Positions 37,280 to 61,390 of a DNA stretch of 64,000 bases are shown piece by piece. The notes under the pieces are model-generated. The model was not told the origin of the DNA. It did not search any database and worked only from the letters and a program-made list of their open reading frames with translations. Every line of letters starts with the position of its first letter. Position 1 is the stretch's first letter. The position numbers and the translations under genes are program-made. The DNA comes from Kordia aestuariivivens. Lineage in GTDB: Bacteria; Bacteroidota; Bacteroidia; Flavobacteriales; Flavobacteriaceae. The DNA lies in assembly GCF_014397005.1 (NCBI RefSeq), contig NZ_JACGWS010000010.1, positions 62,001 through 126,000 on the forward strand, written 5' to 3'.

Positions 37280-37513
37280 ATGAAAAAAAGAAATTTAAAT
37301 AGCTTAAAGCTTAACAAAAAAACGATTTCAAGTCTAAAGGAATCAGGAAAAATTACAGGAGGAACTGGTACTTGTCCAGCTGTTACTTATTTTATATGTC
37401 CCATAGTTGTCTCCCTGCTTGTTTGCCCTGATGATTCTGCAGATGGTTGCACTGGTACTCCCGATGAAACAATGACTTGTGCAGATTGGTCATGTGGATG
37501 TCCGATGAAGTAA
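37280..37513 (+). CDS. double-glycine precursor peptide P1 (class I lanthipeptide-like)
   Basis: The 77-residue peptide has a leader of 28 residues with SLKLNKKTISSL and ends in GG (27-28), the form of RiPP precursors in Bacteroidota, including those annotated as class I lanthipeptides. The 49-residue core has seven cysteines; Thr or Ser precede three or four of them, and the end is TMTCADWSCGCP. Its closest relative is P2 (38646), and the C-terminus is shared with P4. No modification or export gene lies nearby, so processing would need enzymes from elsewhere. The palindrome and -7 box upstream set it in the same regulatory group as P2 and P4. The product is unknown. Confidence 0.82.
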   Translation: MKKRNLNSLKLNKKTISSLKESGKITGGTGTCPAVTYFICPIVVSLLVCPDDSADGCTGTPDETMTCADWSCGCPMK

Positions 37514-37630
37514 GTTAACACGCTTACAAAGTATAGGTTGTTTAAAGAGTCTTGAAAAACGTTATCTCCGTATAGTGGACAAGTTCGTTGGTTATTGGTA
37601 TGATTATAGACAAGATATAGCAATAGATTT

Positions 37631-37657
37631 AAGCGAACTTCGGTTCGCTTTTCTTTT
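37631..37657 (+). terminator. terminator after P1
   Basis: AAGCGAAC and GTTCGCTT form a perfect 8-bp stem on a TTCG tetraloop, followed by TTCTTTT. It lies 117 nt past the P1 stop, so the P1 message has a long 3' tail. Confidence 0.88.
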
Positions 37658-37826
37658 GATTTCACTTCAAAAAAATTAGTCTGTTGCAGTTAATGTCAAT
37701 TTATATTTTAAGTCAAATTCATCTTGGTCAAATAGAAAAAATTATGTTTTAAAATACTATGACTTTTGTCATTTTTATGCGAGAAATGCAGCAATACATT
37801 TGTGCTATAATTTTAAATATAGACTT

Positions 37827-38474
37827 ATGAAAAAAGCAATATTAGGTGTTTTTTTAATGTTAGGAATGTTTCAACTAGCAGCACAAGAAGATGTAAAGCA
37901 ACAAGATACTAATAAGAAATGGCAAGTTCGTGCGCGTTTTATTTCAGTAATTCCAAGTGAGAGTGCTTCTATTGAAGCTATTGGCGGTGATGTTTCTATT
38001 TCTACGTCGTATGTTCCAGAGTTGGATTTTACATATTTTTTCACAAAAAATTGGGCAGCAGAATTAATTTTAGCCACAACAAATCATGATGTCGAAGCGA
38101 TCAATACAGCGGCAGGAAACATAGATTTAGGCGATGTTTGGTTATTGCCACCAACGTTAACGGTTCAATATCACTTTCCAATAGGAGACTTTAAACCATA
38201 CATTGGAACAGGATTAAATTATACAATTTTTTATGGCGCAGACGAAGGTCCAGTAGCTGATGATGTAAGTTATGATAATAGTATTGGTTTTGCCTTTCAA
38301 GCTGGACTTGACTATGCACTAAACGATACTTGGTTTTTGAATTTAGACTTGAAGAAAATATTACTTCAGACTGATGCAACAGTCAATGCAAATACTGCAT
38401 TAGGCGCGACTGTTGGAGCAGATGTAGACATCAATCCGTTAGTGATTGGTTTTGGTGTCGGAATGAAGTTTTAA
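37827..38474 (+). CDS. OmpW/AlkL-family outer-membrane protein
   Basis: The frame opens at 37800, but the ATG at 37827 begins a proper signal peptide (MKKAILGVFLMLGMFQLAAQ), giving 215 residues. Eight amphipathic strands follow, with family-like WQVRARFISVIPSESA, VDFTYFFTKNWAAELILA-type segment, PTLTVQYHFPIGDFKPYIGTGLNYT and a terminal aromatic FGVGMKF. OmpW proteins are small eight-strand barrels that pass hydrophobic molecules. It lies between peptides P1 and P2 and ends at a terminator nearly identical to that of P2. Confidence 0.88.
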   Translation: MKKAILGVFLMLGMFQLAAQEDVKQQDTNKKWQVRARFISVIPSESASIEAIGGDVSISTSYVPELDFTYFFTKNWAAELILATTNHDVEAINTAAGNIDLGDVWLLPPTLTVQYHFPIGDFKPYIGTGLNYTIFYGADEGPVADDVSYDNSIGFAFQAGLDYALNDTWFLNLDLKKILLQTDATVNANTALGATVGADVDINPLVIGFGVGMKF

Positions 38475-38495
38475 TAGTTGTTCAAATATGAAATG

Positions 38496-38523
38496 AAAAA
38501 CGCTACTGAGAAGTGGCGTTTTT
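38496..38523 (+). terminator. terminator after ompW-like gene
   Basis: AACGCTACT and AGTGGCGTT pair around a GAGA loop and are followed by T5. It differs by only one base from the terminator at 38911-38938, where the T-G wobble becomes a C-G pair. Confidence 0.88.
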
Positions 38524-38553
38524 CTATGGAAATACCAATTGTTTTATAAATTA

Positions 38554-38575
38554 ATCGTTATTTATAAATCACGAC
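38554..38575. promoter_or_regulatory. near-palindrome upstream of peptide P2
   Basis: The site has the same ATTTATAAAT core and the same right-hand ATCACGA half as the P1 element, with two mismatched pairs. It is 33 nt before the P2 -7 box and 71 nt before the ATG. Confidence 0.7.
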
Positions 38576-38607
38576 TTGCTTAATTTTTTCCTTCTTTTTT
38601 TTGGAAC

Positions 38608-38615
38608 TATTTTCG
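38608..38615 (+). promoter_or_regulatory. -7 promoter box of peptide P2
   Basis: TATTTTCG matches TAnnTTTG at seven of eight positions, 31 nt before the ATG, matching the P1 layout. Confidence 0.45.
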
Positions 38616-38645
38616 ATCAATTATTAATTCTAAAAATTCTGAGAA

Positions 38646-38888
38646 ATGAAAAAAAGAGACTTAAACAGTTTAAAACTTAATAAAAAAGTTATATCTAATT
38701 TAAGCGATAAAAATAAAATTACTGGAGGAAGTGCTATTGAATGTGCTCTAACTATGTGGGTGTGCCCAATAGTTTCATATACGATTTCCTTAGCTGTTTG
38801 TCCTGATGATTCTGCAAATGGTTGCACGACTACTCCAGATGAAACTATGACTTGTGCTGACTGGTCTTGTGGTTGTCCAGAGAAATAG
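38646..38888 (+). CDS. double-glycine precursor peptide P2 (class I lanthipeptide-like)
   Basis: The 80-residue peptide has a 28-residue leader (SLKLNKKVISNL, ending ITGG) and a core with seven cysteines. It is a close paralog of P1: both have the block CPDDSA(D/N)GCT followed by TPDETMTCADWSCGCP, and differences lie mainly in the core's first 25 residues. The hydrophobic middle (MWVCPIVSYTISLAVCP) is notable for a secreted peptide. Upstream palindrome spacing equals that of P1. The gene is followed after 22 nt by its own terminator. No processing enzyme is visible. Confidence 0.82.
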   Translation: MKKRDLNSLKLNKKVISNLSDKNKITGGSAIECALTMWVCPIVSYTISLAVCPDDSANGCTTTPDETMTCADWSCGCPEK

Positions 38889-38910
38889 TTTTGAAGACTA
38901 AGTTAAAGCA

Positions 38911-38938
38911 AAAAACGCCACTGAGAAGTGGCGTTTTT
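38911..38938 (+). terminator. terminator after P2
   Basis: AACGCCACT and AGTGGCGTT form a perfect stem on a GAGA loop with T5. It is a one-base variant of the terminator at 38496-38523, pointing to duplication of this block. Confidence 0.92.
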
Positions 38939-38962
38939 CTATTTTTTTAAAAGAAGATTTAT

Positions 38963-39502
38963 CTAATTAAGCGTCAATAATTGTACTGTTTTTGAATCTC
39001 CAGTAATGGTTACGATATATAAATTTCCGTTATTACTATCGTCAATATGTTCAAATTTTTCTTCATTCAACAATCTATTTACAAAATCGGGTGTCGTATT
39101 GCTATGCCCAACAATTAAGGTTGTTTTTCCTCCGGTATTCGCTAAAAATTGTTTAAAATCGATTTTAAATGGATGATATAATGTGAGTTCTAACTCGTTC
39201 GCTTCTGCTGTTGGAACTGCGGTTTCTTTAGTTCTGTTGTAATCCGTAGAGTAGACAGCATCAAATTTTACATTTTTAAGGACGTCTGACCAATATACGG
39301 CTCTATTGTTTCCTTCTTTGGTTAATTTTGGATCTTTATTTTTCTTGTCGCTACGATCTTTTTCCGCATGACGGATTAAGTAATAGACAGAAGTTTCAAC
39401 TTCAACTTCGGTTTCAGTTTCAACTTCAATTTCTTTTGATTCTTGCGCAAAGCAATTCATCAATAAGAATAAACTCAACAGTACTAAAATGTTTTTTTTC
39501 AT
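38963..39502 (-). CDS. secreted histidine phosphatase family protein
   Basis: The 179-residue protein has a signal peptide (MKKNILVLLSLFLLMNCFAQ), an acidic linker of EVETETEVEVE repeats (residues 23-35) and a histidine phosphatase (phosphoglycerate mutase-like) domain. The catalytic motif is LIRHAEKDRS, the second arginine is in YNRTKET, and the second histidine is in VGHSNTTPDFVN. It is smaller than full-length family members, as in SixA-type phosphatases. The substrate is unknown. The gene is convergent with P2. Confidence 0.88.
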   Translation of the reverse strand: MKKNILVLLSLFLLMNCFAQESKEIEVETETEVEVETSVYYLIRHAEKDRSDKKNKDPKLTKEGNNRAVYWSDVLKNVKFDAVYSTDYNRTKETAVPTAEANELELTLYHPFKIDFKQFLANTGGKTTLIVGHSNTTPDFVNRLLNEEKFEHIDDSNNGNLYIVTITGDSKTVQLLTLN

Positions 39503-39524
39503 CGGATATTTTTAATTTTTGTGT

Positions 39525-40223
39525 TTAAATGATTGCCAATGCAATTTCGATCATTTCTTTAAAAGTTTCTGCACGTTCATCAGAAGTTGTGGTTTCATGA
39601 GTCACTAAACTATCAGAAATAGTCAATAAAGATAGTGCTTTTACATTAAATCGTGCAGCGAGTGTATACAAAGATGCCGTTTCCATCTCTACGCAAAGCA
39701 CGCCGTATTTCGCCCATTTTTTATAATATTCAGGATCTTCTTGATAAAATACATCACTCGTTAAGATGTTTCCTGCCTTTACAGGAATATTTTTTTCTTT
39801 CGCGGCATTGATCGCTGCTAAGAACAATTCGGCATTAGCCGTAGGAGCAAAAGTTTCGCCCGTAAATGGCAATTCATTCATACTACTATTGGAAGATGAA
39901 GACATTGCAATGACGATATCGCGAATGTTTACATCTTTTTGATACGAACCAGCGCTACCAACACGAATCAGTTTTTGTACATCGTATTCATTGATCAATT
40001 CGTGAATATAAATACTAATAGAAGGCGCGCCCATTCCGGTTCCTTGTACAGATACAGGTTTTCCTTTGTAGGTACCTGTGTAGCCAAACATTCCTCTAAC
40101 ATCGTTGTATAAAACAGGATTGTCAAAGAAGGTTTCTGCAATCCATTTGGCACGCATAGGATCGCCAGGAAGTAAAACCGTTGGTGCTATTTCGCCTTTT
40201 TTAGCTTCAATATGTATGCTCAT
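39525..40223 (-). CDS. deoD: purine-nucleoside phosphorylase
   Basis: The 232-residue DeoD-type enzyme splits purine nucleosides with phosphate. It shows the phosphate-binding [43 protein letters not shown] and the nucleoside-binding [13 protein letters not shown] with [10 protein letters not shown]. It follows deoC by 3 nt on the minus strand, forming a nucleoside salvage unit. Confidence 0.95.
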
Positions 40224-40226
40224 AAC

Positions 40227-40892
40227 TTAATAGGTATTTTTTGATGATGTTTTATTGATAATTGCAATTCCGTTGGAAGTTCCTAAGCGAGAAACGCCCG
40301 TGTCAATATACATTTTAGCCGTTTCGTAATCTCTGATTCCGCCAGAAGCTTTTAGTTTTGCCTGTCCGTTTACGGCTTTTTTCATGAGTAGAATGTCTTC
40401 TACTGTTGCGCCGCCAGTTCCAAATCCGGTAGAAGTTTTTACAAAATCTGCGCCAGCTGCAACAGCAAGTTCGGAAGCTTTTATTTTTTCTTCACCCGAA
40501 AGATAACAGGTTTCAATAATTACTTTGAGAACAGCATCGCCAGCGGCTTTTTTTAGTTGTTGAATTTCTTCTTTGACTAAATTTTCTTTTCCCGATTTCA
40601 ACCAGCCAATATTAATCACCATGTCAAATTCGTCTGCGCCATCTTGTTTCGCTTGAAGCAACTCAGCAACTTTTGCTTCTGTACTCATTGCGCCCAATGG
40701 AAAACCAATGACGCTACAAACCTGTACGGAAGCACTATTTTTTAAACACTCTTTCGCTAGTTTTACATGACAACTATTCACGCAAACGGAGAAAAAATCG
40801 TGTTCTAACGCTTCTTTACAGAGTTGTTGAATATCTGCAATTGTAGCGTTTGGTTTTAGTAACGTGTGATCTATATATCGGTTGATGTTCAT
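40227..40892 (-). CDS. deoC: deoxyribose-phosphate aldolase
   Basis: The frame opens further upstream, but the ATG at 40892 gives MNINRYIDHTLLKPNAT, the usual start, and 221 residues. DeoC splits deoxyribose-5-phosphate to acetaldehyde and glyceraldehyde-3-phosphate. It has VCSVIGFPLG, DEFDMVINIGWLKSG, the active Lys region VLKVIIETCYL and ADFVKTSTGFGTGGATVED. With deoD 3 nt downstream it feeds deoxynucleoside carbon into central metabolism. Confidence 0.95.
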   Translation of the reverse strand: MNINRYIDHTLLKPNATIADIQQLCKEALEHDFFSVCVNSCHVKLAKECLKNSASVQVCSVIGFPLGAMSTEAKVAELLQAKQDGADEFDMVINIGWLKSGKENLVKEEIQQLKKAAGDAVLKVIIETCYLSGEEKIKASELAVAAGADFVKTSTGFGTGGATVEDILLMKKAVNGQAKLKASGGIRDYETAKMYIDTGVSRLGTSNGIAIINKTSSKNTY

Positions 40893-41214
40893 ATTTATTT
40901 TTATATTGTTAAGTACATGACAAAAGAGCCAAAACATGTTTAGTATCCTAAATAACTTTCTAGCTCTTTTCTTTGCTTGCCCAAAGAAAATGAACCAAAA
41001 GAAAAGGCACTTTTATGAGGAATTTTTAGTTCTTTTCTAAAGAAGAACTAAAACCGTACTACAAACACTAAATTTTTTCCAAGGCTTCAAAAATTTTCAA
41101 CGTGTTTGTATTACTATTCTGCATAAAAGATAAACCACGAGTTGTCATTTAATCTTTTACTAAATTGTAAAGCGTAAATATATCTAAAAAATCATTTCAA
41201 AAACCTGATATTTA
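40893..41214. repeat. intergenic stretch with two inverted repeats
   Basis: Within this 322-bp gap lie two hairpins. At 40968-40989, TTTCTTTG and CAAAGAAA enclose CTTGCC, part of a CTTTGCTTGCCCAAAG motif that I have seen as a scattered intergenic repeat in other bacteria. At 41024-41053, TTTTAGTTCTT and AAGAACTAAAA form an 11-bp stem. No coding region is apparent. One of them may terminate transcription from the thioesterase gene, but neither has a clear T-run on the minus strand. Confidence 0.5.
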
Positions 41215-41703
41215 TCACGAAACTGTTGCCAATCGTAAACTTTTAATACGTTCATCAAAATTTGTTTCTGTAATTGGAAGTACCGCATTCTCGAATAAAT
41301 TTATATATTTATCGTTGTGTTCGTGTGCTTTTCCTTTTAGAATATTGAAGTGAATAAACGAACTCCATAAAACAGCTTTTAGTTCTGTTTTTGCTTCGTT
41401 CCACATGCGGATTTCCACTAATAAGTGCCTTTTGCTAAATTGTAATAGTTGTGAATCAATCGTCACGGTTTCCATCACAAATGCTGGTCTGATGTACGAT
41501 ATTTGATGTGAACCAACCACCCAAGTTGTACCAGTTGTCTTAGCTGTTTCAAAAATATCTAAGTCGTAATGAGTAATTAATTGATCTTCTCGCGCGTTGA
41601 TGAGGTAATCTAAGTATTTGCTATTATTCAAGTGGTTCAGCGGATCGCAATCTTGAAATCGTATTTTACTCTTGCTTTCTAAAATTTTTGGTAAGTTTTC
41701 CAT
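41215..41703 (-). CDS. acyl-CoA thioesterase (4HBT hot-dog family)
   Basis: The 162-residue protein has the 4-hydroxybenzoyl-CoA thioesterase motif RFQDCDPLNHLNNSKYLDYL, with the conserved aspartate, and the later strands HQISYIRPAFVMETVTID and VEIRMWNEAKTELKAVL. It likely cleaves acyl-CoA thioesters in the cytoplasm. A TetR gene lies upstream on the same strand, and a copy of its probable operator sits 182 bp before the start codon here. Confidence 0.85.
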   Translation of the reverse strand: MENLPKILESKSKIRFQDCDPLNHLNNSKYLDYLINAREDQLITHYDLDIFETAKTTGTTWVVGSHQISYIRPAFVMETVTIDSQLLQFSKRHLLVEIRMWNEAKTELKAVLWSSFIHFNILKGKAHEHNDKYINLFENAVLPITETNFDERIKSLRLATVS

Positions 41704-41739
41704 TAATAATTTATTTTTAATATCAATTATTGTTTAAAA

Positions 41740-41875
41740 TGAGCTATAAATAATTTGAATTATATCAAGTCCAAATAAAATAGAAAATCAAAGCATAGCC
41801 ATAGCTACGGTTTTATTTTATATTGAAATGTGGGCATTATAGAAACGAATTATATAGTTTGTTTTAAATGATTAT
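41740..41875. repeat. AT-rich intergenic element with GCATAGCCATAGCTACG core
   Basis: Between the TetR gene and the thioesterase gene is an AT-rich block whose centre GCATAGCCATAGCTACG is flanked by AATAAAATA and TTTATTTTATA arms. The reverse complement of that centre occurs with one change at 47833-47850. It looks like a dispersed element. Confidence 0.4.
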
Positions 41876-41884
41876 TGATATAGT

Positions 41885-41898
41885 ATACCAATCGGTAT
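41885..41898. promoter_or_regulatory. TetR-type operator upstream of thioesterase gene
   Basis: ATACCAATCGGTAT is a palindrome with one mismatched pair and differs by one base from the perfect site at 42542-42555 beside the tetR start. It lies 22 bp past the tetR stop. Confidence 0.7.
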
Positions 41899-41920
41899 AT
41901 TTTTGATTAAAAAAATAGTT

Positions 41921-42517
41921 TTATGCTCTTAATTCTTCGTTGATCATTTTATCTACTTGATCCATAGTGTCTTTGATATAAAATTCATCATCCATCGTAT
42001 ATGCCATAAAAATTGCACCTTGAATCATGGTGTCAATACGTTTGGCAGCATACATGGCGTTTACTTTTGTTGAAATTTCTCCAATGGCAATTCCATCTTC
42101 AATAATTGATGCCAATTGATCTTGAATTCGTTGAATGATCACGCGCACTTTTTCGAGTAATAGTGAGTTTTGATTGTTCGCGTCGACGCCAATATTCAAA
42201 ATTGGACAACCGCCCATTTTGTTGGCATACATATAATAGTTTCGATAAAAATCTGAAATCAACAAGAGTTTTTCAATAGGCGAATCGCTTTGCTCCATGT
42301 GCTTGACAATTTCCTGCATCAAACTTTTCACCATGAATTTAAACGCAGCAATAGCCAATTGCTCTTTGTTTTCAAAGTTGCCGTAAATCGCACCTTTTGT
42401 CAAGCCTGTCGCTTTGGTGAGATCAGAAATGCTCGTTGCTGCGTAGCCATTCTTGTTAAAAATAGGCGCAACCGTCTCAATGATATATGTGGCTGTTTTT
42501 TCGGCTTTTGTGGTCAT
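41921..42517 (-). CDS. TetR/AcrR-family repressor
   Basis: The 198-residue protein has an N-terminal HTH of TetR type (NGYAATSISDLTKATGLTKG then AIYGNFENKEQLA) and a helical C-terminal ligand domain with CPILNIGVDANNQNSLLLEK. Two copies of ATACC-x4-GGTAT, one 24 bp upstream of its start and one just after its stop, are the probable operators, so it likely represses itself and the thioesterase downstream. The peptide P3 promoter region lies just beyond the first operator on the opposite strand and could also be controlled. Confidence 0.92.
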   Translation of the reverse strand: MTTKAEKTATYIIETVAPIFNKNGYAATSISDLTKATGLTKGAIYGNFENKEQLAIAAFKFMVKSLMQEIVKHMEQSDSPIEKLLLISDFYRNYYMYANKMGGCPILNIGVDANNQNSLLLEKVRVIIQRIQDQLASIIEDGIAIGEISTKVNAMYAAKRIDTMIQGAIFMAYTMDDEFYIKDTMDQVDKMINEELRA

Positions 42518-42540
42518 GGGAACAAATATACTAAAAATAA

Positions 42541-42556
42541 TATACCGATCGGTATA
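42541..42556. promoter_or_regulatory. TetR-type operator between tetR and peptide P3
   Basis: TATACCGATCGGTATA is a perfect 16-bp palindrome, 24 bp upstream of the tetR start and directly before direct-repeat copy A. It is the expected autorepression site. Confidence 0.8.
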
Positions 42557-42560
42557 AAAT

Positions 42561-42633
42561 ATGTTTTATAGTTATAACGTAGTGGAAGTATTGTTTCTGT
42601 GTATATATAAGTAATTGATTATAAGTAAATTTA
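42561..42633. repeat. 73-bp direct repeat, copy A (upstream of P3)
   Basis: This copy aligns without gaps to 42851-42923 with 9 mismatches in 73. It contains ATTGTTTCT and ends in TAAATTTA, a seven-of-eight match to the -7 box. It probably carries the P3 promoter. The two copies are 290 bp apart and bracket the P3 gene. Confidence 0.9.
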
Positions 42634-42660
42634 GGATGTTAACTTAAAATAAAACATATA

Positions 42661-42849
42661 ATGAAAAAAAGAAATCTAACTGTAAAATTGAATTTGAGAA
42701 AGAAAATAATTGCTTCTCTAGATTTAAGAAAGCTTCATGGAGGAATTGGAAATGCAAGTGATGACCCAACAACTGTTGATAATTCATTGGGAAAGCAGAG
42801 TACCTGTCCAATAGAAACATGTACATGTGTAGATCCTGTACGACTATAA
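42661..42849 (+). CDS. double-glycine precursor peptide P3 (class I lanthipeptide-like)
   Basis: The 62-residue peptide has a leader with the family layout (LNLRKKIIASL) ending in GG at 27-28, here as LHGG. The 34-residue core starts IGNASDDPTT and has three cysteines close together, CPIETCTC, each preceded by Thr or in T-C pairs. It differs from the P1/P2/P4 group in core and control region: it sits between two 73-bp direct repeats and next to a TetR operator. It has no visible partner enzyme. Confidence 0.75.
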   Translation: MKKRNLTVKLNLRKKIIASLDLRKLHGGIGNASDDPTTVDNSLGKQSTCPIETCTCVDPVRL

Positions 42850-42850
42850 A

Positions 42851-42923
42851 ATGTTTTATTGTTAAAACGTAGTCAAAGTATTGTTTCTATGTATTTGTAA
42901 ATAATTGATTATTAGTAAATTTA
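42851..42923. repeat. 73-bp direct repeat, copy B (downstream of P3)
   Basis: This is the second copy, 2 bp after the P3 stop, also ending in TAAATTTA. Transcription from it would run into the region 42929-43054, which has a long-range inverted repeat and a terminator but no coding frame of note. Confidence 0.9.
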
Positions 42924-42928
42924 CTTTT

Positions 42929-43054: not shown

Positions 43055-43114
43055 GTTTGCGTTTTTGCTATTTTTTATAGTTTGATTTTTTACTTTAGGA
43101 AAAAATTAAATTAT

Positions 43115-44608: not shown

Positions 44609-44611
44609 TTC

Positions 44612-47357: not shown

Positions 47358-47576
47358 ATGAAAAAAAAGAATCTTAAATTATTAAGTTTTAACAAAGAAT
47401 CAATCTCAACGCTACAATTTACAGATCAAATTAAAGGAGGTTCTGGTGGTTGTCAGCCTAGTGACATAATTCCACTTTGTCCAAGACCTGATGATACTTC
47501 AGCAAACGGATGTGAAACTGTACCAACTTATGAAACAATGACTTGTGCTAATTGGTCCTGTGCTTGTAATAAATAA
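47358..47576 (+). CDS. double-glycine precursor peptide P4 (class I lanthipeptide-like)
   Basis: The 72-residue peptide has a leader (LLSFNKESISTL, ending IKGG at 25-28) and a 44-residue core with six cysteines: CQPSDIIPLCPRPDD, NGCETVPTYE, then TMTCANWSCAC. The final TMTCA(D/N)WSC(G/A)C block is shared with P1 and P2, which are 9-10 kb away, and the promoter layout is also shared. It is followed after 143 nt by a terminator. A secreted protein with a cysteine-containing tail (48056) lies 480 bp downstream. Confidence 0.82.
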   Translation: MKKKNLKLLSFNKESISTLQFTDQIKGGSGGCQPSDIIPLCPRPDDTSANGCETVPTYETMTCANWSCACNK

Positions 47577-54856: not shown

Positions 54857-55054
54857 ATGAAAAAACAAGAAATTAAATTAGGGTTAAAAAAGTTTATTGT
54901 TTCTAACTTAAACGTTGACAGTGTAAAAGGAGGAACAGGAACTTTTCAACCAGAATCAGAAGACAGATTGAATTGTGAAACGGAAGGTTGTACGCAAGGT
55001 TGTATAACATTAGCATATACCAATTGTAATCAATGTCCATATACTACATGTTAA
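54857..55054 (+). CDS. double-glycine precursor peptide P5 (class I lanthipeptide-like)
   Basis: The 65-residue peptide has a leader (KLGLKKFIVSNL, ending VKGG at 25-26) and a 39-residue core with six cysteines spread through its second half (LNCETEGCTQGC, TNCNQCPYTTC). It is acidic after the GG and has no TMTCA block, so it is a different product type from P1/P2/P4. It follows the AraC gene and shares its leader element with P6 and P8. P6 begins 71 nt after its stop, so P5 and P6 are probably one transcript ending at 55389-55422. Confidence 0.8.
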   Translation: MKKQEIKLGLKKFIVSNLNVDSVKGGTGTFQPESEDRLNCETEGCTQGCITLAYTNCNQCPYTTC

Positions 55055-55125: not shown

Positions 55126-55323
55126 ATGAAGAAAAAAAATATAACAAAGTCCTTAAAATTGAGTAAATCCAGCATAGCAAGTCTTGCGGATAAAGAGATC
55201 AAAGCTATAAAAGGTGGAGCATCAGCAGTTCCACATTTATGTCCAACTTTTATTCCTATTTTATGTTTAGTTACCTATCGTTCGTGTACGTTTACGGAAA
55301 CCTTCCGTACATGTCCGGTGTAA
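55126..55323 (+). CDS. double-glycine precursor peptide P6 (class I lanthipeptide-like)
   Basis: The 65-residue peptide has a slightly longer leader (LKLSKSSIASL, ending IKGG at 30-31). The 34-residue core is rich in Thr, Phe and Leu, with four cysteines (HLC, ILC, RSC, RTC) and no charge cluster; Ser or Thr are within two residues of several cysteines. It is the second gene of the P5-P6 pair and is followed by a strong terminator. No processing gene adjoins it. Confidence 0.8.
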   Translation: MKKKNITKSLKLSKSSIASLADKEIKAIKGGASAVPHLCPTFIPILCLVTYRSCTFTETFRTCPV

Positions 55324-55388: not shown

Positions 55389-55422
55389 CAACTTCAGACT
55401 TCGGTTTGAAGTTGTTTTTTTT
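55389..55422. terminator. terminator after P6
   Basis: CAACTTCAGAC and GTTTGAAGTTG pair over 11 bp (one G-T) on a TTCG loop, followed by eight T on the plus strand. It sits between P6 and the convergent lipoprotein gene. Confidence 0.92.
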
Positions 55423-55439
55423 AAGAATATTTAGTATTG

Positions 55440-56627
55440 TTATCTGAATTTATTCCTGGTGATAATGGATTTTAATTTTGCTTTCAAATCTTCTCCAGTA
55501 TCATATACCATTTGTTCATTGCTAGGAAAAGGAACTGCTCTAACATTTGTAATGTTTATATATCGTTGATCTAGCGCTCTACGATCGCCATCAAAATTTG
55601 CGTAAATATGCTCAAAAGCAAATTCACTACTTATTGGAAACGCTTCAATAAGTTGCTTTGACTTATAATTTATATACTTTACTTGCCCAGCAACTCTAGT
55701 CGTTTTAAACTGTGTAAATTCATACAGCTCGCAACGAACGTTTTTATATTTATCTACCTTGATTTTAGTTCCCAAGCTATCTCTTAAAATTGTTCCGCTG
55801 TCGTCTGTTGCATATTCCCATCCATCTTTTATCTGTTTTTCTTTAATGATTTGTTTTTCTCTTATTTGTTCAGGAGAAATATTGATTTCTCTCAAATCGA
55901 GAATTAAGCCAAAGTCATATTGTATTTGAGGGATTTCATTTCCATGATATACAGTCCATAAATCATTTAATCCATAGGTGTTAAAGTTGAGTAAATCATC
56001 TTCTAAGCGTTGCGGAATTACTTTATCGGTACTATTGCTTAAAGTAACTAATACAAAATCAGTTCCTTTTACATGCGCTTCTTCCATTAAGCGACGCGTG
56101 TCTTTATAATTTGGTGATATTTTATCTATATACCTGAAATCATCATATACTTTTCTATATTCATTTTTTTGTTTTGTAGTACTTAACAATGATTTTGCAT
56201 TTGCATATAAATGTTCAGACAACTGATTTTTTGTATTAATAATTTCAGATGAATAATCTTGAATCCTGAATTTCGCATTGATACCTTTTTCTAAAATAGG
56301 CAATGGAAGTAATGGCTTGATCGTTTCTTGTCGATCGCTTATAGCAAGATACGTATTATAAATATCCTCTAACTTTTCAGGATTTCCATCCGCTTTTAAA
56401 AACTTAATTGTAGACAAATCTCTATCCAAAGCCTTCGCATACGCTTCTTGTAATAAAATAACATATTGCTGTTTTCTTTTACTTGTTTTATTCTTTTTAA
56501 GTTGATTAACAGCATCCTGAATCACGGAATCATAATTCCCTGTATTCAATGCTTCTTGTGTCTTTTTAACACCACCACAAGCGATTAAGAATAAAAATGC
56601 GGTCATTAAAAGTAGTATTTTTTTCAT
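55440..56627 (-). CDS. hypothetical lipoprotein with helical repeat region
   Basis: The frame extends to 56672, but the ATG at 56627 gives a proper lipoprotein signal (MKKILLLMTAFLFLIACGG, Cys17) and 395 residues. The N-terminal half is helical and TPR-like (EALNTGNYDSVIQDAVNQL, KQQYVILLQEAYAKAL). The C-terminal half is beta-rich (GWEYATDDSGTILRDSLGT then CELYEFTQFKTTRVAGQVKY). I do not recognise a named family. It is probably exposed at the outer membrane or in the periplasm. It stands alone on the minus strand. Confidence 0.72.
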   Translation of the reverse strand: MKKILLLMTAFLFLIACGGVKKTQEALNTGNYDSVIQDAVNQLKKNKTSKRKQQYVILLQEAYAKALDRDLSTIKFLKADGNPEKLEDIYNTYLAISDRQETIKPLLPLPILEKGINAKFRIQDYSSEIINTKNQLSEHLYANAKSLLSTTKQKNEYRKVYDDFRYIDKISPNYKDTRRLMEEAHVKGTDFVLVTLSNSTDKVIPQRLEDDLLNFNTYGLNDLWTVYHGNEIPQIQYDFGLILDLREINISPEQIREKQIIKEKQIKDGWEYATDDSGTILRDSLGTKIKVDKYKNVRCELYEFTQFKTTRVAGQVKYINYKSKQLIEAFPISSEFAFEHIYANFDGDRRALDQRYINITNVRAVPFPSNEQMVYDTGEDLKAKLKSIITRNKFR

Positions 56628-56789
56628 ACGTAATTCTTTAGGTTTGTTAGGTGTAAGCAATTTAGAGACCAAACTTTGTAAATATTATATTTTTTTAATA
56701 ATTACACTAAAATCTATGCATTTATAATGGCATTAATTCATGAATCATTAAATTTTTTAGAAATAGTGTGTAAAGATATTGTAGAATCT

Positions 56790-56797
56790 TAACTTCG
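56790..56797 (+). promoter_or_regulatory. -7-like box before the TauE/SafE gene (leaderless arrangement)
   Basis: TAACTTCG matches TAnnTTTG at seven of eight positions and ends 4 nt before the ATG at 56802. Confidence 0.4.
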
Positions 56798-56801
56798 CGC
56801 C

Positions 56802-57551
56802 ATGTGTGACCCAATTATTTATGTACTCTTAGGACTTGCTGTTGGCTATATTGGCGGATTTGCAGGAATTGGAGGCGGCCCATTTTTAGTTTCTTTTCTA
56901 GTACTGTATTGTGGAATGTCGCAATTGGTAGCGCAAGGAAATGTGCTCACCATGATGTTAGGGCCCATGAGCCTTCTAGGTGTTTTATCAATGTATGAAT
57001 ATGTAAAAAAGCAATGGCTCAATATTGCTATTGGCGTCATTGCATATTGTATATGTTCGTATTTTGGGGCCGTTTTTGCCTTTTACATTGGAGAAACTGA
57101 TTTAAAATATTACTTCGCTGTTCTATTGGTAATCATTGCGTTGATGCAATTTCGATCGTATTTAAGGAAGAATGCAAAAGCATCAGATAAAGAATTTATT
57201 TCTCCTTATTGGATTTTGATATTGGCAGCTTTCACAGGAATTTTAGGCGGTATGTTCGGAATTGGAGCTGGTGTGTTAATGGTACCAATATTAATAGGTA
57301 TTTTTAAACTAAAAAAAGAATATGCGCGCTCGTTAAGTTTGGCAATTTTAATTCCGCCTGTGAGTTATGGAGCGTTTATAAAATACAACTTTGAAAATCC
57401 TGTTGACTGGCAATTGGTTGGAATTCTTTTTGGAACCTACTTTATCTCAAACTTCTTCGGAGCCAAAATGGGAAGCAAAATTTCAGGAAAAGCATTCACC
57501 TTAGTGTATGGCGTTATCTTACTCTCCATTGCTGTTATTTATTTAGTTTGA
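56802..57551 (+). CDS. TauE/SafE-family anion permease
   Basis: The 249-residue membrane protein has about eight helices in two repeated halves. Each half has the family glycine-rich motif: GFAGIGGGPFLVSFLV near residue 20 and GILGGMFGIGAGVLMVPIL near residue 150. Members export sulfite, sulfoacetate or related organic anions, or move metals; the substrate is not predictable. It is a single gene upstream of P7. Confidence 0.92.
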   Translation: MCDPIIYVLLGLAVGYIGGFAGIGGGPFLVSFLVLYCGMSQLVAQGNVLTMMLGPMSLLGVLSMYEYVKKQWLNIAIGVIAYCICSYFGAVFAFYIGETDLKYYFAVLLVIIALMQFRSYLRKNAKASDKEFISPYWILILAAFTGILGGMFGIGAGVLMVPILIGIFKLKKEYARSLSLAILIPPVSYGAFIKYNFENPVDWQLVGILFGTYFISNFFGAKMGSKISGKAFTLVYGVILLSIAVIYLV

Positions 57552-57780
57552 TATTGTTTTCAAAACTACTTCTCATCAAGAAATAATCTTTTCTACAAAA
57601 AAATATAAATCATATCATATCATTTTAGCGAAGCCTATATAACGAATTAGCTGAGTTTGAATCTTACTATTTGATTTTCAGTATTTTAGATTAACAAAAT
57701 ATTAACTAATGTACTGTTTATTAATTAGTTAACTATGATCGGGATGAACGTTAGTTGTGTTTTTTTTTATTTCATTTGAA

Positions 57781-57823
57781 CAATTTATACAAGGTGTAAG
57801 CATGCACACTCTTGTATAAATTG
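57781..57823 (+). promoter_or_regulatory. long hairpin directly before peptide P7
   Basis: CAATTTATACAAG and CTTGTATAAATTG are perfect 13-bp inverted copies; inside, GTGT pairs with ACAC. It ends 22 nt before the P7 ATG. TTCATTTG (57770-57777) is a seven-of-eight -7 box just before it, which would put the hairpin at the 5' end of the P7 message. Confidence 0.75.
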
Positions 57824-57845
57824 TTTAATATTTAATCATACTATT

Positions 57846-58001
57846 ATGAAAAAACAAAAATCATTACAATCGTTAAGCTTAAAGAAAGCGCAAATAGCAA
57901 CCTTAAATACGAAAGCTGTGAAAGGAGGTGGAACGTATCCGCACTCATCTAGAGGTTCATTGAATCCCTTAAATTGTACAAATAGTGCATTTTGTTATTA
58001 A
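57846..58001 (+). CDS. double-glycine precursor peptide P7 (class I lanthipeptide-like)
   Basis: This 51-residue peptide has a leader (SLSLKKAQIATL, ending VKGG at 25-28) and a short core GTYPHSSRGSLNPLNCTNSA then FCY, with two cysteines. The block NPLNCT-x-SA-x-C-Y is shared with P8 (61211), 3.3 kb away, although the two have different upstream elements: P7 has a hairpin, P8 the conserved leader element. A terminator (58101-58132) follows at 100 nt. Confidence 0.8.
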   Translation: MKKQKSLQSLSLKKAQIATLNTKAVKGGGTYPHSSRGSLNPLNCTNSAFCY

Positions 58002-58100
58002 TAGTAATAAAATGAGGTTCAATTATTTCAAAAAGCATTCTTGATATTTTTTGAAATTTGAACATTACGTACTATATATATCCCACTCTTTTAAACTTAA

Positions 58101-58132
58101 AAATGCTGCTAAAATTTAGTGGCATTTTTTTA
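58101..58132 (+). terminator. terminator after P7
   Basis: AAATGCTGCTAAA pairs with TTTAGTGGCATTT (one wobble, one mismatch) and is followed by a T-run. Confidence 0.78.
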
Positions 58133-58309
58133 TAATATATGTTTCAGCACATATATTTTCTAGGTTTCTATAATTTTTTCTCCGTTTTACAACTTGTAAG
58201 TGGGCAATATTTGATTAAAAAATATAATTATTCTTACGATTTCATCTTCATAATAACCATCTTTTTTTTACGGTTTTCCATTCTTTTGTGCGCTTTTATT
58301 ATCGTATAA

Positions 58310-58347
58310 TTGGTAAACCAATTTGGTTTACCAGATTGGTTTACCAA
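58310..58347. promoter_or_regulatory. triple 12-mer operator before the alginate lyase gene
   Basis: Sites at 58310-58321 (TTGGTAAACCAA), 58323-58334 (TTGGTTTACCAG) and 58336-58347 (TTGGTTTACCAA) are near-palindromic; the first is the reverse complement of the third. The last ends 28 nt before the ATG at 58376, so binding would probably block or position transcription. LacI- or GntR-type regulators bind sites like this. Confidence 0.8.
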
Positions 58348-58375
58348 GTAAATTATTAATCACAAACCAAAAACC

Positions 58376-59674
58376 ATGAAACAATTTTTATCAAATCTAA
58401 CCTACAAACCAATGAAACTTTTGATGCTAGTCTGCTTAGTACTATGCTATTCGTGTTCTACAGAACTGGATTCAGAAATAGATGAAGAAGCTATTGAAAA
58501 TGGAAAGCAACCAATTTTACAAAAAAATGCTGAAATTACACCTGCAAGCGTCTCCGCAAATGGCGATGATGGCAATGTTCCACAAAATACACTAGACGGA
58601 AACTTAGGAACACGTTGGTCGTCAAATGGCTATAACGGAAAATATATCACATATGATTTAGGTTCTGTAAAATCGGTCTCGTCTGTAAAATTGGCTTTCT
58701 ATAAAGGCAATCAACGGAAAGCGTATTTTAAAATTAGAGTAGGTACATCAACTTCCAATTTACAAACCATTGTAGATAAAAAATCTTCTGGAAGTAGCGG
58801 AAATACAAACGGATTGGAAACCTATAGTTTCAATACTGTGAATGTACGTTACGTGCGAATTTCTTGCTTTGGAAACTCTTCAAGTTCGTGGAATAGTATT
58901 ACAGAAACAGAAATTTATGGAACTGGCGGAACTATTGGTGGTGGCGATTCACCCGGAGATAATTTAGGACTTACTTCAAACAATTGGAAACTAAACGGAT
59001 TTACTGGAAGTCCAGGGTCAGGAGCAACGTACAGAGACGATGTGTTGGCTTCTACGGGAGAAACTTTTGGAACGTACAACGATCCAAATTACTTTTATAC
59101 GGATGGAGAATGGACATTTTTTAAATGCTATAGAGGGTTAGGAGGTTCTTCAAACTCTGGAAACCCAAGAGTAGAACTCAGAGAAATGAGCAATGGAAAT
59201 CTTGCTAGTTGGAATGGTGGCTCTGGGAACAATACCATGACATTTACGGTTAGAGTGGATAGATTGCCACAAGATGCTGATAATGATGGAGGCGTTTTAT
59301 GTTTTGCGCAAATTCATGGACCAAGCAATACCGTTGATGATGTGATTAGAGTACAATTTTTAGGAGATGAAAATCAGAGCTCTGGCGGCGTGCGAATGAA
59401 AATTAGCGGTTACATCACTGAAGATGTGCAAGGAAGCAGCTTAATCATTGATAATGGTTACCAGTTAAACACGAGCTACACGTTTAAAATTTCTTATAAC
59501 AATGGAGTTGTAAAACTTTTTGATGGATCAAATGAAATCTTTTCGCAGGCAATTGGTACAAACACTTCTGGAAATTATTTTAAAGTTGGAAACTATTTAC
59601 AGTCTGTACAAGGCGCAAGTTATACAGGTTCAAACGGAGTTGTAAGAATCAAAAATTTAAGTATTACACATTAA
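58376..59674 (+). CDS. family 7 alginate lyase lipoprotein with F5/8-type carbohydrate-binding domain
   Basis: The 432-residue protein has a lipoprotein signal (LVCLVLCYSC; a second Met at residue 13 could be the start). Residues about 50-180 match a discoidin (F5/8, CBM32-like) domain: ASVSANGDDGNVPQNTLDGN, TRWSSNGYNGKYITYDLGS and VRYVRISCFGNS. Residues about 200-432 are PL7: NPRVELREM (catalytic Arg region), FAQIHGPSNTVDD with the conserved Q-I-H, and NYFKVGNYLQS. It would cleave alginate by beta-elimination at the cell surface. A triple operator lies just upstream. No SusC/SusD pair is nearby. Confidence 0.9.
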   Translation: MKQFLSNLTYKPMKLLMLVCLVLCYSCSTELDSEIDEEAIENGKQPILQKNAEITPASVSANGDDGNVPQNTLDGNLGTRWSSNGYNGKYITYDLGSVKSVSSVKLAFYKGNQRKAYFKIRVGTSTSNLQTIVDKKSSGSSGNTNGLETYSFNTVNVRYVRISCFGNSSSSWNSITETEIYGTGGTIGGGDSPGDNLGLTSNNWKLNGFTGSPGSGATYRDDVLASTGETFGTYNDPNYFYTDGEWTFFKCYRGLGGSSNSGNPRVELREMSNGNLASWNGGSGNNTMTFTVRVDRLPQDADNDGGVLCFAQIHGPSNTVDDVIRVQFLGDENQSSGGVRMKISGYITEDVQGSSLIIDNGYQLNTSYTFKISYNNGVVKLFDGSNEIFSQAIGTNTSGNYFKVGNYLQSVQGASYTGSNGVVRIKNLSITH

Positions 59675-59748
59675 GCTTTTCAAGAATTTGAAAAGCGAAA
59701 TTCTGAATTTAGTTCAGAATCTAACTATTTCCCGAATTAGCAAAAACG

Positions 59749-59781
59749 AAAAACTCCCAAAGGTCATTTTGGGAGTTTTTT
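59749..59781 (+). terminator. terminator after the alginate lyase gene
   Basis: AAAACTCCCAAA and TTTGGGAGTTTT form a 12-bp stem over a short loop, with a T-run. It lies 75 nt after the stop. Confidence 0.9.
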
Positions 59782-59893
59782 AATTTATCGATTCATATAA
59801 ATATCGATATAGAATTTAATACTTAATTACTTTTTAACTAACTTACTAAAGTTACCTGTTTTGTGATAAAAATTATTCATTTACTAACTGATT

Positions 59894-61021
59894 GTGACCA
59901 CACTTCATATAGACATATGGATTCTGCTATTTTTTGCTTTCTCTTTTCAAGCATTCACTTTAGGAATTTTATTTTTTCTAAAACAAAAAGGCGATAAAGT
60001 TGCCAATAAACTTTTTGGAATATTCTTGTTTTTATTTTCCTATAATTTGCTTTATAATTGTGCTTATTGGGCTACGAATAAAGGATTATATCATCCACAT
60101 TTATTGTATACAAACCTTATTCCTTGGGTTTTATACGGACCATTATTGTACTTGTACATTCGTCGCGTATTGTATCAAAAGAAAATGTTACTAAGAGACA
60201 GTTTGCATGCAATTCCATTATTGTTGATTTTTATAAAATATGGAGACTTTTTTATTTTATCGGCCACAGAAAAGCTTCAAAAAGCAATAAAAATAATGGC
60301 TTCCGAAGATATTACACCTTGCAAAATATACAAGGATTATATAATTATTATCGTCATGTTACTCATGTGTTTCTATGTGGGATTGATATACAAACAATAC
60401 CATACCTACAAAAAAGAAACTTCCTCTGCACAGATAAGACTTTGGATAATGTACTTGTTAGGAAGTTACACAGCATATCTACTTATATTTTCGTTGTATT
60501 ATTTGTTAGAATCTTTTCAATTAATGTCCCTTGCGGGAGATTATATCATCGGTTATTGTATTGTCGTTATTATTGGAATTGTTTCATACTTTAGCTTTAT
60601 GCAACCTGATATTTTTTCTGGTAAGAAAATCATTCCATATATAAAATATCAAAAAAATGGTATGTTAACATCCTTTGCGCTTGAAATGAAACAGCAATTG
60701 GAAGATTTAATGGAAATAGAAAAAGTATACTTAGATCATACATTGACGCTTGATAAACTCGCAGATTTGTTGAATCTTTCTAAACATCATACTTCACAAA
60801 TTATTAATGAATACTTTCAATCGAATTTCTTTGAATTTGTTAGTAATTATCGAATCAAAGAAGCGATTACTTTAATGTTAGATACTTCCAATACAATGAA
60901 CATTAACGAAATTATTGATGCAACGGGATTCAATAACCGTTCTTCATTTTACACAGCTTTTAAAAAGAAAACTGGTATGTCGCCTACATCGTATCAAAAA
61001 AAATCGTTCGAGCAGTTTTAA
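59894..61021 (+). CDS. membrane-anchored AraC-family regulator (copy 2)
   Basis: The start is taken as GTG at 59894, because the frame has a stop at 59885-59887 and no ATG before residue 90; alignment with copy 1 supports it (TTLHIDIWILLFFAF against TTINLWIMLFFAF). The 375-residue protein has about seven membrane helices (1-235), then an AraC domain (about 270-370) with LDKLADLLNLSKHHTSQIIN and IIDATGFNNRSSFYTAFKKK then TGMSPTSYQKK. Its DNA-reading helices are nearly the same as those of copy 1, so both may bind similar sites. Peptide P8 follows 189 nt later. Confidence 0.88.
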   Translation: MTTLHIDIWILLFFAFSFQAFTLGILFFLKQKGDKVANKLFGIFLFLFSYNLLYNCAYWATNKGLYHPHLLYTNLIPWVLYGPLLYLYIRRVLYQKKMLLRDSLHAIPLLLIFIKYGDFFILSATEKLQKAIKIMASEDITPCKIYKDYIIIIVMLLMCFYVGLIYKQYHTYKKETSSAQIRLWIMYLLGSYTAYLLIFSLYYLLESFQLMSLAGDYIIGYCIVVIIGIVSYFSFMQPDIFSGKKIIPYIKYQKNGMLTSFALEMKQQLEDLMEIEKVYLDHTLTLDKLADLLNLSKHHTSQIINEYFQSNFFEFVSNYRIKEAITLMLDTSNTMNINEIIDATGFNNRSSFYTAFKKKTGMSPTSYQKKSFEQF

Positions 61022-61157
61022 TTTTTTCCTGAAACGTTAGTCAATAATGATCGGGGTTGTACAAAAATTGTCAATCCTTGTCGGCTCACATGTGTTTTCT
61101 TACGCTTTTAATTTTCTTTGATAAAGAATTTGTTTGTGGCCAAAAACATTCTACAAA

Positions 61158-61188
61158 GCGGAATCCGAAAAGCTGATAGAGTAGGAAA
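61158..61188 (+). promoter_or_regulatory. 31-nt conserved leader element before P8
   Basis: It reads TCCGAAAAGCTGATAGAGTA then GGA. Compared with the P5 and P6 copies, GCC-GGC has become TCC-GGA, a change that keeps the pairing. It ends 22 nt before the P8 ATG. Confidence 0.7.
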
Positions 61189-61210
61189 ATTATTTTAATC
61201 TTTAATTATT

Positions 61211-61390
61211 ATGAAAAAAAAGAGTATATCAAATAGCTTAGTATTTAAAAAATCAGTTGTGGCTGAATTGAGCAATAAGAAAATGCAAGTCGTTCTAGGA
61301 GGATCAACAGCTACGACTTCAGCCATGCGTGAATGGTGTGCAACAATTAACCCATTAAATTGTACAATGAGTGCACAGTGTGCATACTAA
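61211..61390 (+). CDS. double-glycine precursor peptide P8 (class I lanthipeptide-like)
   Basis: The 59-residue peptide has a leader (LVFKKSVVAEL, ending VVLGG at 30-31) and a 28-residue core STATTSAMREWCATINPLNC then TMSAQCAY, with three cysteines and many Ser/Thr. The NPLNCT-x-SA-x-C block is shared with P7. It lies downstream of the second AraC paralog and carries the same leader element as P5 and P6. A strong terminator follows after 14 nt. No modification or export genes adjoin it. Confidence 0.82.
   Translation: MKKKSISNSLVFKKSVVAELSNKKMQVVLGGSTATTSAMREWCATINPLNCTMSAQCAY

Follow-up and report, generated by a model that had tools for sequence, protein, structure and literature searches.

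The window, by which we mean the whole 64,000-nucleotide stretch of Kordia aestuariivivens DNA analyzed here (on contig C2), contains eight small precursor genes on the + strand:

37280..37513, + strand: precursor P1, 77 aa, core with seven Cys; NF038153 17.3 bits (cut-off 22); genome-built leader profile E 5e-15
38646..38888, + strand: precursor P2, 80 aa, core akin to those of P1 and P4; NF038153 below cut-off; genome-built leader profile E 3e-13
42661..42849, + strand: precursor P3, 62 aa; NF038153 below cut-off; genome-built leader profile E 1e-9
47358..47576, + strand: precursor P4, 72 aa, core akin to those of P1 and P2; NF038153 below cut-off; genome-built leader profile E 1e-12
54857..55054, + strand: precursor P5, 65 aa; absent from the NF038153 matches listed; genome-built leader profile E 7e-11
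55126..55323, + strand: precursor P6, 65 aa; NF038153 28.9 bits, above cut-off
57846..58001, + strand: precursor P7, 51 aa, core akin to that of P8; NF038153 below cut-off; genome-built leader profile E 2e-10
61211..61390, + strand: precursor P8, 59 aa; NF038153 28.9 bits, above cut-off

All eight open reading frames lie where the initial annotation had placed them, and direct reading bears out its description of a leader of 26 to 31 residues with a GG end and of cores with two to seven Cys. The cores do differ, as it had stated, but they are not all unrelated: by reading, P1, P2, and P4 have in common the C-terminal block SA-x-GC ... ETMTCA[DN]WSC, and P7 and P8 the block NPLNCT-x-SA-x-C. The NCBIfam model of the class I lanthipeptide leader, NF038153, places P6 and P8 above its cut-off of 22 bits and P1 to P4 and P7 below it, P5 being unlisted, and all eight reach E ≤ 6e-7 with a leader profile built from their own genome. 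At the level of sequence, P1 to P8 are confirmed as class I lanthipeptide-type precursors.

No LanB, LanC, YcaO, radical SAM, or C39-peptidase transporter gene had been seen in the window, and every match to Lant_dehydr_N, LANC_like, C39, and SPASM in the genome falls on contigs other than C2. The genome does hold RiPP enzymes: as had been proposed, candidate trans-acting LanB, LanC, and C39 genes are found elsewhere by a whole-genome search. There is exactly one Lant_dehydr_N (LanB_N) match in the whole genome, on contig C16, where the class I dehydratase is split into two proteins, Lant_dehydr_N and then Lant_dehydr_C, preceded by a LANC_like protein with the motifs WCYG and CHG. Genes for the glutamylation and elimination activities of LanB and for the LanC cyclase are present and adjoining, with HlyD and a C39 peptidase-ABC exporter located 6 to 8 kb further along the contig, and the leader of the precursors next to LanB is that of the scattered ones. 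The order sigma factor, TPR protein, LanC, LanB, LanB_C, HlyD, C39 is kept in all eight Kordia LanB loci compared.

Searches with the leader profile recovered P1 to P8 together with a genome-wide set, so that the eight peptides first described, though real, greatly underestimate the family. We observe at least 227 leader-bearing precursors in 1.43 Mb of the 5.46-Mb genome, a lower bound for the genome drawn mostly from stretches picked around matches. Extrapolation to a total was dropped because five arbitrary stretches (99.5 kb) held no precursor and the picked stretches cannot be scaled. In an earlier set, before further stretches were added, the profile (retrained on its own matches at E ≤ 0.01) found 215 real open reading frames at E ≤ 0.001 among 5,868 ORF starts. 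When these starts were shuffled or reversed, no match appeared at E ≤ 0.01, one (shuffled) at E ≤ 0.1, and five (four shuffled, one reversed) at E ≤ 1. NF038153 places 33 of its 126 matches across the genome above its cut-off, and PF14406 (Bacteroid_pep) found nothing in the genome, a result that is uninformative because its own controls gave none either. The 215 precursors fall into 125 groups; the 208 used for the contig count are spread over 23 contigs, and most of the counted precursors are not on the LanB contig. One LanB thus stands against 125 precursor groups, a prochlorosin-like logic of precursors unlinked to a single enzyme.

Across the 60 genomes searched, the leader is confined to those bearing LanB. 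Each of the 11 Kordia genomes has a single LanB and 124 to 130 leader matches, these counts being floors because at most 130 candidates per genome were scored. Among the other 49 genomes, four bear the leader, all with LanB, and 43 free of LanB have no leader at E ≤ 0.01. This co-occurrence and the LanB set itself support the assignment of the leader to the class I lanthipeptide type of Bacteroidota. It also bears on the idea that the precursors are mainly modified by other enzymes, namely, a LanM on contig C34, an APH/HopA1/LanC set on contig C44, or radical SAM/SPASM proteins, which we consider unlikely. The genome does encode a LanM of 957 aa (778 bits to TIGR03897), the HopA1, APH, and LanC set, and seven SPASM matches, all of which could modify some precursors. 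On contig C12 a SPASM enzyme is immediately followed by a leader-type ORF (L160:8040, E 4e-6), a weak one (L162:4331, E 0.03) lies near a grasp-with-SPASM pair, and P6, at 23.6 bits, is just under the 25-bit cut-off of the radical SAM-target family TIGR04149 (P8, 16.5 bits; the other six unlisted). Radical SAM-modified peptides are also named alongside lanthipeptides for Kordia in the cited part of PMC11118758. However, no leader-type precursor occurs in the 14 kb around the C44 set or in the 19 kb around the C34 set, and the leader is seen only in LanB-bearing genomes (SPASM was searched in this genome). LanM (DUF4135) is present in only 4 of the 11 Kordia genomes, yet all 11 have the leader in at least 124 matches, and LanM as a general modification route is rejected on this distribution. 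A repeat protein on contig C44 has no family match.

The composition of the cores is consistent with ring formation by a class I system. Both Ser/Thr and Cys, which rings require, are present in 206 of 208 cores, and in 207 the Ser/Thr are no fewer than the Cys; 7 of the 215 precursors, having no clear GG or GA, are omitted from these counts. The spacings [ST]-x(2 to 5)-C are overrepresented (z of 3.2, 3.2, 8.6, and 6.3, values inflated by kinship among the sequences) and C-x(3 to 7)-[ST] underrepresented, with C-x-[ST] and C-x(2)-[ST] (z of 5.5 and 3.0, likewise inflated) as exceptions to the Ser/Thr-before-Cys order.

A palindrome, TACGG-N5-CCGTA, lies about 62 nt before 29 of the 215 precursors, a count made on the same upstream regions from which it was derived, and before none of P1 to P8. 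A second family of GG-leader peptides is found under the same operator. Sigma-type promoters are not enriched before precursors, either as a two-box pattern (6 of 215 versus 21 of 606 other genes) or as a −7 box alone (33 of 215 versus 147 of 606).

C39 exporters handle unmodified peptides too. The Cys-rich cores and the second GG-leader family under the shared operator could accordingly be read as unmodified peptides held by disulfides, with LanB serving only a few adjoining precursors. We regard this as quite improbable, given the Ser/Thr-before-Cys bias (its two exceptions notwithstanding), the occurrence of the leader only together with LanB among the 60 genomes, and the common leader of LanB-adjoining and scattered precursors. 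A class I system acting on the whole set remains the reading that we prefer.

Two AraC-type regulators that had gone unremarked in the initial annotation precede P5/P6 and P8:

53585..54706, + strand: AraC-type regulator before P5, N-terminal half hydrophobic by reading, HTH_18 at the C terminus (Pfam E 3e-19)
59894..61021, + strand: second AraC-type regulator, built like the first, GTG start (Pfam HTH_18 E 4e-18)

The former ends 151 nt before P5 and has a homologue in 8 of 10 right-hand regions of other Kordia genomes; the latter lies 190 nt before P8, and both regulator and spacing (191 nt) are retained in genomes G008 and G001. Genome-wide, 63 of the 64 HTH_18 matches were located as ORFs. 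Among the HTH_18 genes of 520 to 640 aa, 29 of 35 have a same-strand precursor within 500 nt on their 3' side, versus 43 of 598 other genes (Fisher P = 1e-24), and in 28 of the 29 pairs the precursor follows at 69 to 125 nt. Two of the 35 (C13:56980 and C23:356182) are not TPR-like by reading and are kept as misses, which leaves 33 TPR-AraC genes; the TPR assignment is based on Pfam for one protein, on a structure model for another, and on length, alignment, and reading for the rest. At the LanB loci of other Kordia genomes, all 10 TPR-AraC genes are followed by a leader-like ORF at 84 to 90 nt (eight pass the profile), and in Aquimarina 11 of 16 have one within 300 nt (10 pass); matches of 920 to 1165 aa with 63 to 101 bits are excluded from these counts, and one Aquimarina match is a fragment at a locus edge.

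By a simple hydropathy test, an internal hydrophobic stretch is present in 33 of 33 TPR-AraC proteins, which suggests that the TPR domain is outside the membrane, and an N-terminal one in only 16. The predicted TPR structure (pLDDT 86) best matches the eukaryotic LGN; peptide-pheromone receptors rank lower, the structures of Rap and NprR matching the model at E about 2e-5, which indicates a common fold and is not proof of kinship. TPR domains and the cores paired with them show no codivergence (Mantel r = −0.01, P = 0.59).

Between species, the conservation of cores is about equal to that of leaders, or exceeds it, in the four families compared (P3, P5, P6, and P8). Core identity is 0.81 versus 0.58 for the leader in P5 (seven aligned homologues, the leader/core border being blurred by an alignment gap) and 0.77 versus 0.53 in P8 (six aligned homologues), and the block CP[IV]ETC[TS]C of P3 is retained in eight aligned syntenic Kordia homologues; the alignments omit two short homologues, G009 for P5 and G005 for P3. 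Precursor content does vary among Kordia species, and of the nine other genomes read in the left region, just one has a relative of P1/P2/P4 at the same site, as might be expected if the scattered precursors were decaying copies or selfish small genes useless to the cell. That explanation is disfavored as very improbable: core pN/pS is 0.21 to 0.24 for P5, P6, and P8 (P3, 0.45), cores are not less conserved than leaders, and both the regulator spacing and the operator position are fixed.

From the precursors, the single LanB set, the co-occurrence of leader and LanB, the fixed regulator pairing, and the common operator, all read in the DNA, we infer how the Kordia peptides would be modified and would signal. 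The split LanB, a glutamylation and an elimination protein, would bind the common leader L-x-L-x-K-x(2)-I-x(2)-L and dehydrate Ser/Thr of the core; LanC would then form thioether rings onto Cys, mostly 3 to 6 residues past Ser/Thr, and the C39 transporter would cleave behind GG and export the product. Production would be divided among many small units, some under a transcription factor acting at TACGG-N5-CCGTA, and about 30 precursors would follow a membrane regulator with its TPR domain outside and its AraC helix-turn-helix inside. Such a regulator most likely acts as the sensor of the peptide that its own unit exports, or of kin peptides, and so sets expression of the unit. We put the probability at roughly 0.8 that one such class I lanthipeptide system has at least 227 substrates, P1 to P8 among them, this mechanism and its regulator sensing included.

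The closest published parallel is given by the prochlorosins and SyncA of marine picocyanobacteria, where one promiscuous lanthionine enzyme (ProcM or SyncM) likewise acts on many diverse cores behind one leader type, with precursor genes far from the enzyme and a marine host. They are defined by a ProcM-type class II LanM and Nif11-type leaders, whereas in Kordia, with LanM in 4 of 11 genomes, we find a class I split LanB with LanC and an LxLxK leader of family NF038153. The highest figure for prochlorosin-type sets in the cited part of PMC10783134 is 83 per genome, versus at least 227 here, and the function of such large scattered sets is there called unknown. Bacteroidota class I lanthipeptides with an LxLxKx5L leader (NF038153; pinensins; Walker et al. 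2020, PMC7268733, as excerpted) are alike in leader motif, GG end, C39 protease, and split LanB. That search was confined to precursors near LanC genes, whereas most of those counted in Kordia are on contigs apart from LanB.

The RiPP richness of Kordia is already published: the TrRiPP study, in the text cited, presents the genus as an exemplar of RiPP-rich Flavobacteriaceae, with as many as 176 precursors for a single Bacteroidota genome, and the terms LanB, AraC, in trans, and dispersed do not occur in its main text (PMC11118758). Marsh et al. 2010 described, in the portion cited, a Kordia algicida cluster with LanB KAOT1_15523, LanC KAOT1_15518, and one LanA (PMC3091789); it is probably the same enzyme locus as that on C16, reported with a single LanA and no genome-wide set, unlike the at least 227 precursors here. 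In the literature searched we find no account of the shared enzyme set, the regulator pairing, or the operator. Titles and opening lines of abstracts yielded, for scattered LanB substrates, only prochlorosin work of this kind and, for a TPR-AraC/RiPP pairing, no more than a comment about TPR genes within RiPP clusters of Bacteroidales.

In RRNPP systems the TPR receptor gene lies directly before its small peptide gene. The 29 of 35 HTH_18 genes with an adjoining precursor resemble Rap and NprR in this arrangement; they differ in having a membrane helix plus an AraC domain fused to the TPR domain and a lanthipeptide leader on the peptide. RRNPP receptors are cytoplasmic and bind a reimported linear peptide; for the Kordia TPR domain, the internal hydrophobic stretch suggests a place outside the membrane.

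Tentatively, and at somewhat worse than even odds, Kordia may possess a peptide language with many channels. Some thirty TPR-AraC receptors in the membrane, each with its gene about 100 nt upstream of a lanthipeptide-type signal of its own, would operate beside about two hundred further lanthipeptides, and one enzyme set would mature and export all of these peptides. If so, this would be Gram-negative cell-cell signaling via modified peptides, and one class I LanB/LanC set would serve more substrates than the 83 per genome of the cited prochlorosin account (PMC10783134). It would also provide a candidate for the density signal behind the release of protease by Kordia algicida, whose filtrate hastens that release, with no acyl homoserine lactone detected and the factor left unidentified in the cited part of PMC3117869. 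The leader is now defined well enough for testing. The regulator-peptide pairs point to signaling as a possible role for large scattered lanthipeptide sets, and they make the question of protease release in K. algicida open to simple experiments.

The eight double-glycine precursors of the window, P1 to P8, are present as ORFs on the + strand where the initial annotation had placed them (ORF check). Its description of eight different cores holds only in part, since on direct reading P1, P2, and P4 have one core block in common and P7 and P8 another. NCBIfam model NF038153 places P6 and P8 above its cut-off and P1 to P4 and P7 under it, with P5 not among the matches, and Pfam gives weak sub-cut-off matches for P6 and P8 only. 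The leader profile search that the annotation had proposed, run with our own profile built from this genome, recovers all eight at E ≤ 6e-7. In 1.09 Mb of stretches this profile identifies 215 ORFs at E ≤ 0.001, here called precursors. With the same 5868 ORF starts, no shuffled or reversed sequence matched at E ≤ 0.01 and one shuffled sequence did at 0.1; because the profile was retrained on its own hits, these controls weigh more than the E-values.

The genome comprises 46 contigs with 5.46 Mb in total, and the window corresponds to C2:62001-126000. Adding more stretches, mostly picked around hits or AraC genes, brings the count to 227 precursors over 121 stretches, which amount to 1.43 Mb of unique sequence, and five arbitrary stretches (99.5 kb) contained none by the same profile. 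The first 215 form 125 groups, 78 of which are single genes, and are spread over 23 contigs (counted on 208 of 215). Over the whole genome, with 150 of 235 candidates scored, NF038153 gives at least 126 matches at E ≤ 1, of which 33 exceed the cut-off; among 14 control genomes, 3 have matches at that E and none has one above the cut-off.

A genome search for LanB/LanC-like and C39 genes, also suggested by the initial annotation, led to a single LanB (split class I dehydratase), which lies with a LanC cyclase and a C39 peptidase-ABC exporter on contig C16.

Putative modification loci of the K. aestuariivivens genome (G000; C, contig; L, fetched stretch)
C16, LanB locus: LANC_like (411 aa), then Lant_dehydr_N (751 aa, the single such protein in the genome), then Lant_dehydr_C (302 aa)
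C16, downstream: precursor at 11358, two TPR-AraC/precursor pairs, two precursors, HlyD, C39-ABC exporter
G000:C9:26729-28948 (L162:5730-7949): grasp-with-SPASM, an ATP-grasp and SPASM pair, assigned by family with the ATP-grasp partner 2 bits under cut-off

Among solved structures, LanB matches 9g04, which we take to be MadB (E 4e-51), and NisB (4wd9, 1e-23), while LanC has a structural match to NisC and contains WCYG and CHG. All 8 Kordia loci compared share this gene order, and the identity of C39 is 93 to 95%. LanB is 87 to 91% identical to eight Kordia records and 51 to 67% identical to twelve others, from Lacinutrix, Leptobacterium, Psychroserpens, Aquimarina, an unclassified Flavobacteriaceae, and one Aminicenantes MAG; by this measure the genome is that of a Kordia. 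Further C39 matches are a second exporter on C1 and a third, partial match on C44. The remaining RiPP enzymes are a LanM (C34), an APH/HopA1/LanC set (C44), and a partial LANC_like match (C17), and SPASM has 7 matches in the genome, that on C9 included. Two others of the 7, C12:111913 and C34:216636, resemble the C9 grasp-with-SPASM pair by neighborhood only. At G000:C44:60952-64349 (L156:2953-6350), APH-like, HopA1, and LanC genes are consecutive, after a 414-aa repeat protein without a family, a row that presumably resembles a class V lanthipeptide set. The class II LanM (G000:C34:229360-232233, L157) is full-length, and the 19 kb around it hold no leader-type precursor.

Across 60 genomes, leader matches (E ≤ 0.01) are present in 15, comprising all 11 Kordia, with at least 124 to 130 each (up to 130 candidates scored per genome), and four others with 1, 1, 1, and 5. 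LanB was found in 17 of the 60, the 15 leader-bearing genomes and two more, and none of the 43 LanB-negative genomes has a leader match at this threshold. DUF4135 (LanM) occurs in four, every one a Kordia (4 of 11). Given this co-occurrence and the limited presence of LanM in Kordia, the leader travels with LanB, not with LanM. A few precursors may have a different enzyme: on C12 (L160:6773-8195) a leader-type ORF (L160:8040, E 4e-6) comes directly after a SPASM radical SAM gene, at a distance of 92 nt, a pair that counts against one single modification route.

HTH_18 has 64 matches in the genome, 63 of which were located as ORFs. Those of 520 to 640 aa (TPR-AraC) have a same-strand precursor within 500 nt 3' in 29 of 35 cases, at a gap of 69 to 125 nt in 28 and 318 nt in one, compared with 43 of 598 other genes of at least 150 aa in the same stretches, and 2/19 and 2/9 for other HTH_18 classes. 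One further TPR-AraC, on C46, has a precursor-like ORF that is sub-threshold in our profile. The leader form [LFI]xKxx[IV][AVIT] occurs in 20 of 29 regulator-linked precursors versus 34 of 186 others. At other Kordia LanB loci a leader-like ORF lies 84 to 90 nt after 10 of 10 TPR-AraC genes (8 pass the profile, E ≤ 0.001), and in Aquimarina one lies within 300 nt after 11 of 16 (10 pass). The model of a K. algicida TPR-AraC (L056, pLDDT 86) comprises TPR helices from 38 to 335, a helix of 92 residues in which the membrane span would lie, and a C-terminal HTH; Foldseek ranks LGN first (E 7e-10), with the pheromone receptors Rap and NprR at about 2e-5. A different AraC type is encoded in the window upstream of P5 (at 151 nt) and of P8 (at 190 nt). 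Of 10 other genomes, 5 have P5 next to its regulator (151 to 167 nt), the P5 ORF being short in one of them (G009), and 2 have P8 next to its own (191 nt).

A palindrome and putative operator, TACGG-N5-CCGTA (≤2 mismatches), has its center 50 to 75 nt upstream of 29 of the 215 precursors, with an exact copy in 14 cases, against a density expectation of 1.2; other gap lengths (2 to 9) give no exact site at this distance. Because the motif was derived from these same upstream regions, the genome-wide test counts more. Exact palindromes number 41 in this genome versus 0 for the reversed pattern, 14 to 41 versus 0 to 3 in each of the 11 Kordia (sum, 242 versus 15), and 104 versus 113 summed over the other 49 genomes, where G049 (4 versus 0) and G024 (9 versus 0, though neither leader nor LanB was found there) are exceptions. 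Among 33 of the 41 exact sites, 18 have a precursor 59 to 71 nt downstream (in two cases with an internal start), 5 sit 60 to 65 nt before a second GG-leader family (MLKxI...GG, for which NCBIfam has no family over cut-off), 2 precede related secreted proteins, and 8 precede none of these. None of P1 to P8 has the palindrome before it.

Other genes behind the palindrome
L226:2336-2527, L142:5963-6148, L218:2617-2748, L130:4320-4475: MLKxI...GG family
L043:1517-3094 (S74 chaperone and Por sorting domains), L219:917-2395: related secreted proteins, palindrome 66 to 68 nt before start

Core counts are based on the 208 of 215 precursors whose GG/GA is clear, the other 7 being left out. Cys number 4.4 and Ser/Thr 7.8 per core on average; both are present in 206, and Ser/Thr equal or outnumber Cys in 207. 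Ser/Thr are in excess 3 to 6 residues before Cys and too rare 4 to 8 after it, with exceptions at 2 and 3 after (excess; z 5.5 and 3.0) and 2 before (too rare; z -2.4), values inflated by related sequences. On the whole, this spacing fits lanthionine rings. Homologues were taken from nine left and ten right regions beside clpB in ten other Kordia, with short ones (P5 in G009, P3 in G005) left out.

Precursor homologues, some perhaps close paralogues (other genomes aligned; mean aa identity, core/leader; pN/pS, core/leader)
P3: 8; 0.56/0.57; 0.45/0.50
P5: 6; 0.81/0.58; 0.21/0.38
P6: 4; 0.84/0.69; 0.21/0.27
P8: 5; 0.77/0.53; 0.24/0.49

Judging from these identities and pN/pS values, the cores are maintained by selection, not randomized.

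Walker et al. cover the leader and the split LanB, though only in the vicinity of LanC (PMC7268733), Marsh et al. list one LanB/LanC/LanA cluster for K. algicida (PMC3091789), and TrRiPP, which names Kordia, puts the maximum for a Bacteroidota genome at 176 precursors (PMC11118758). A lanthipeptide cluster is listed for K. antarctica (PMC7477175), many clusters for Kordia (PMC10734526), and up to 83 prochlorosins per genome (PMC10783134). The literature searched gave no account of a single trans-acting LanB, of TPR-AraC pairs, or of the operator. The RiPP richness of Kordia is already known, and the organization and regulation of the set appear new. Since K. algicida filtrate affects protease release with acyl homoserine lactone not detected (PMC3117869), the peptide-receptor pairs are testable candidates; a later study reports nutrient control as well and states that quorum sensing cannot be excluded (PMC10565126). 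We put the chance that these peptides act in signaling at about one in three.
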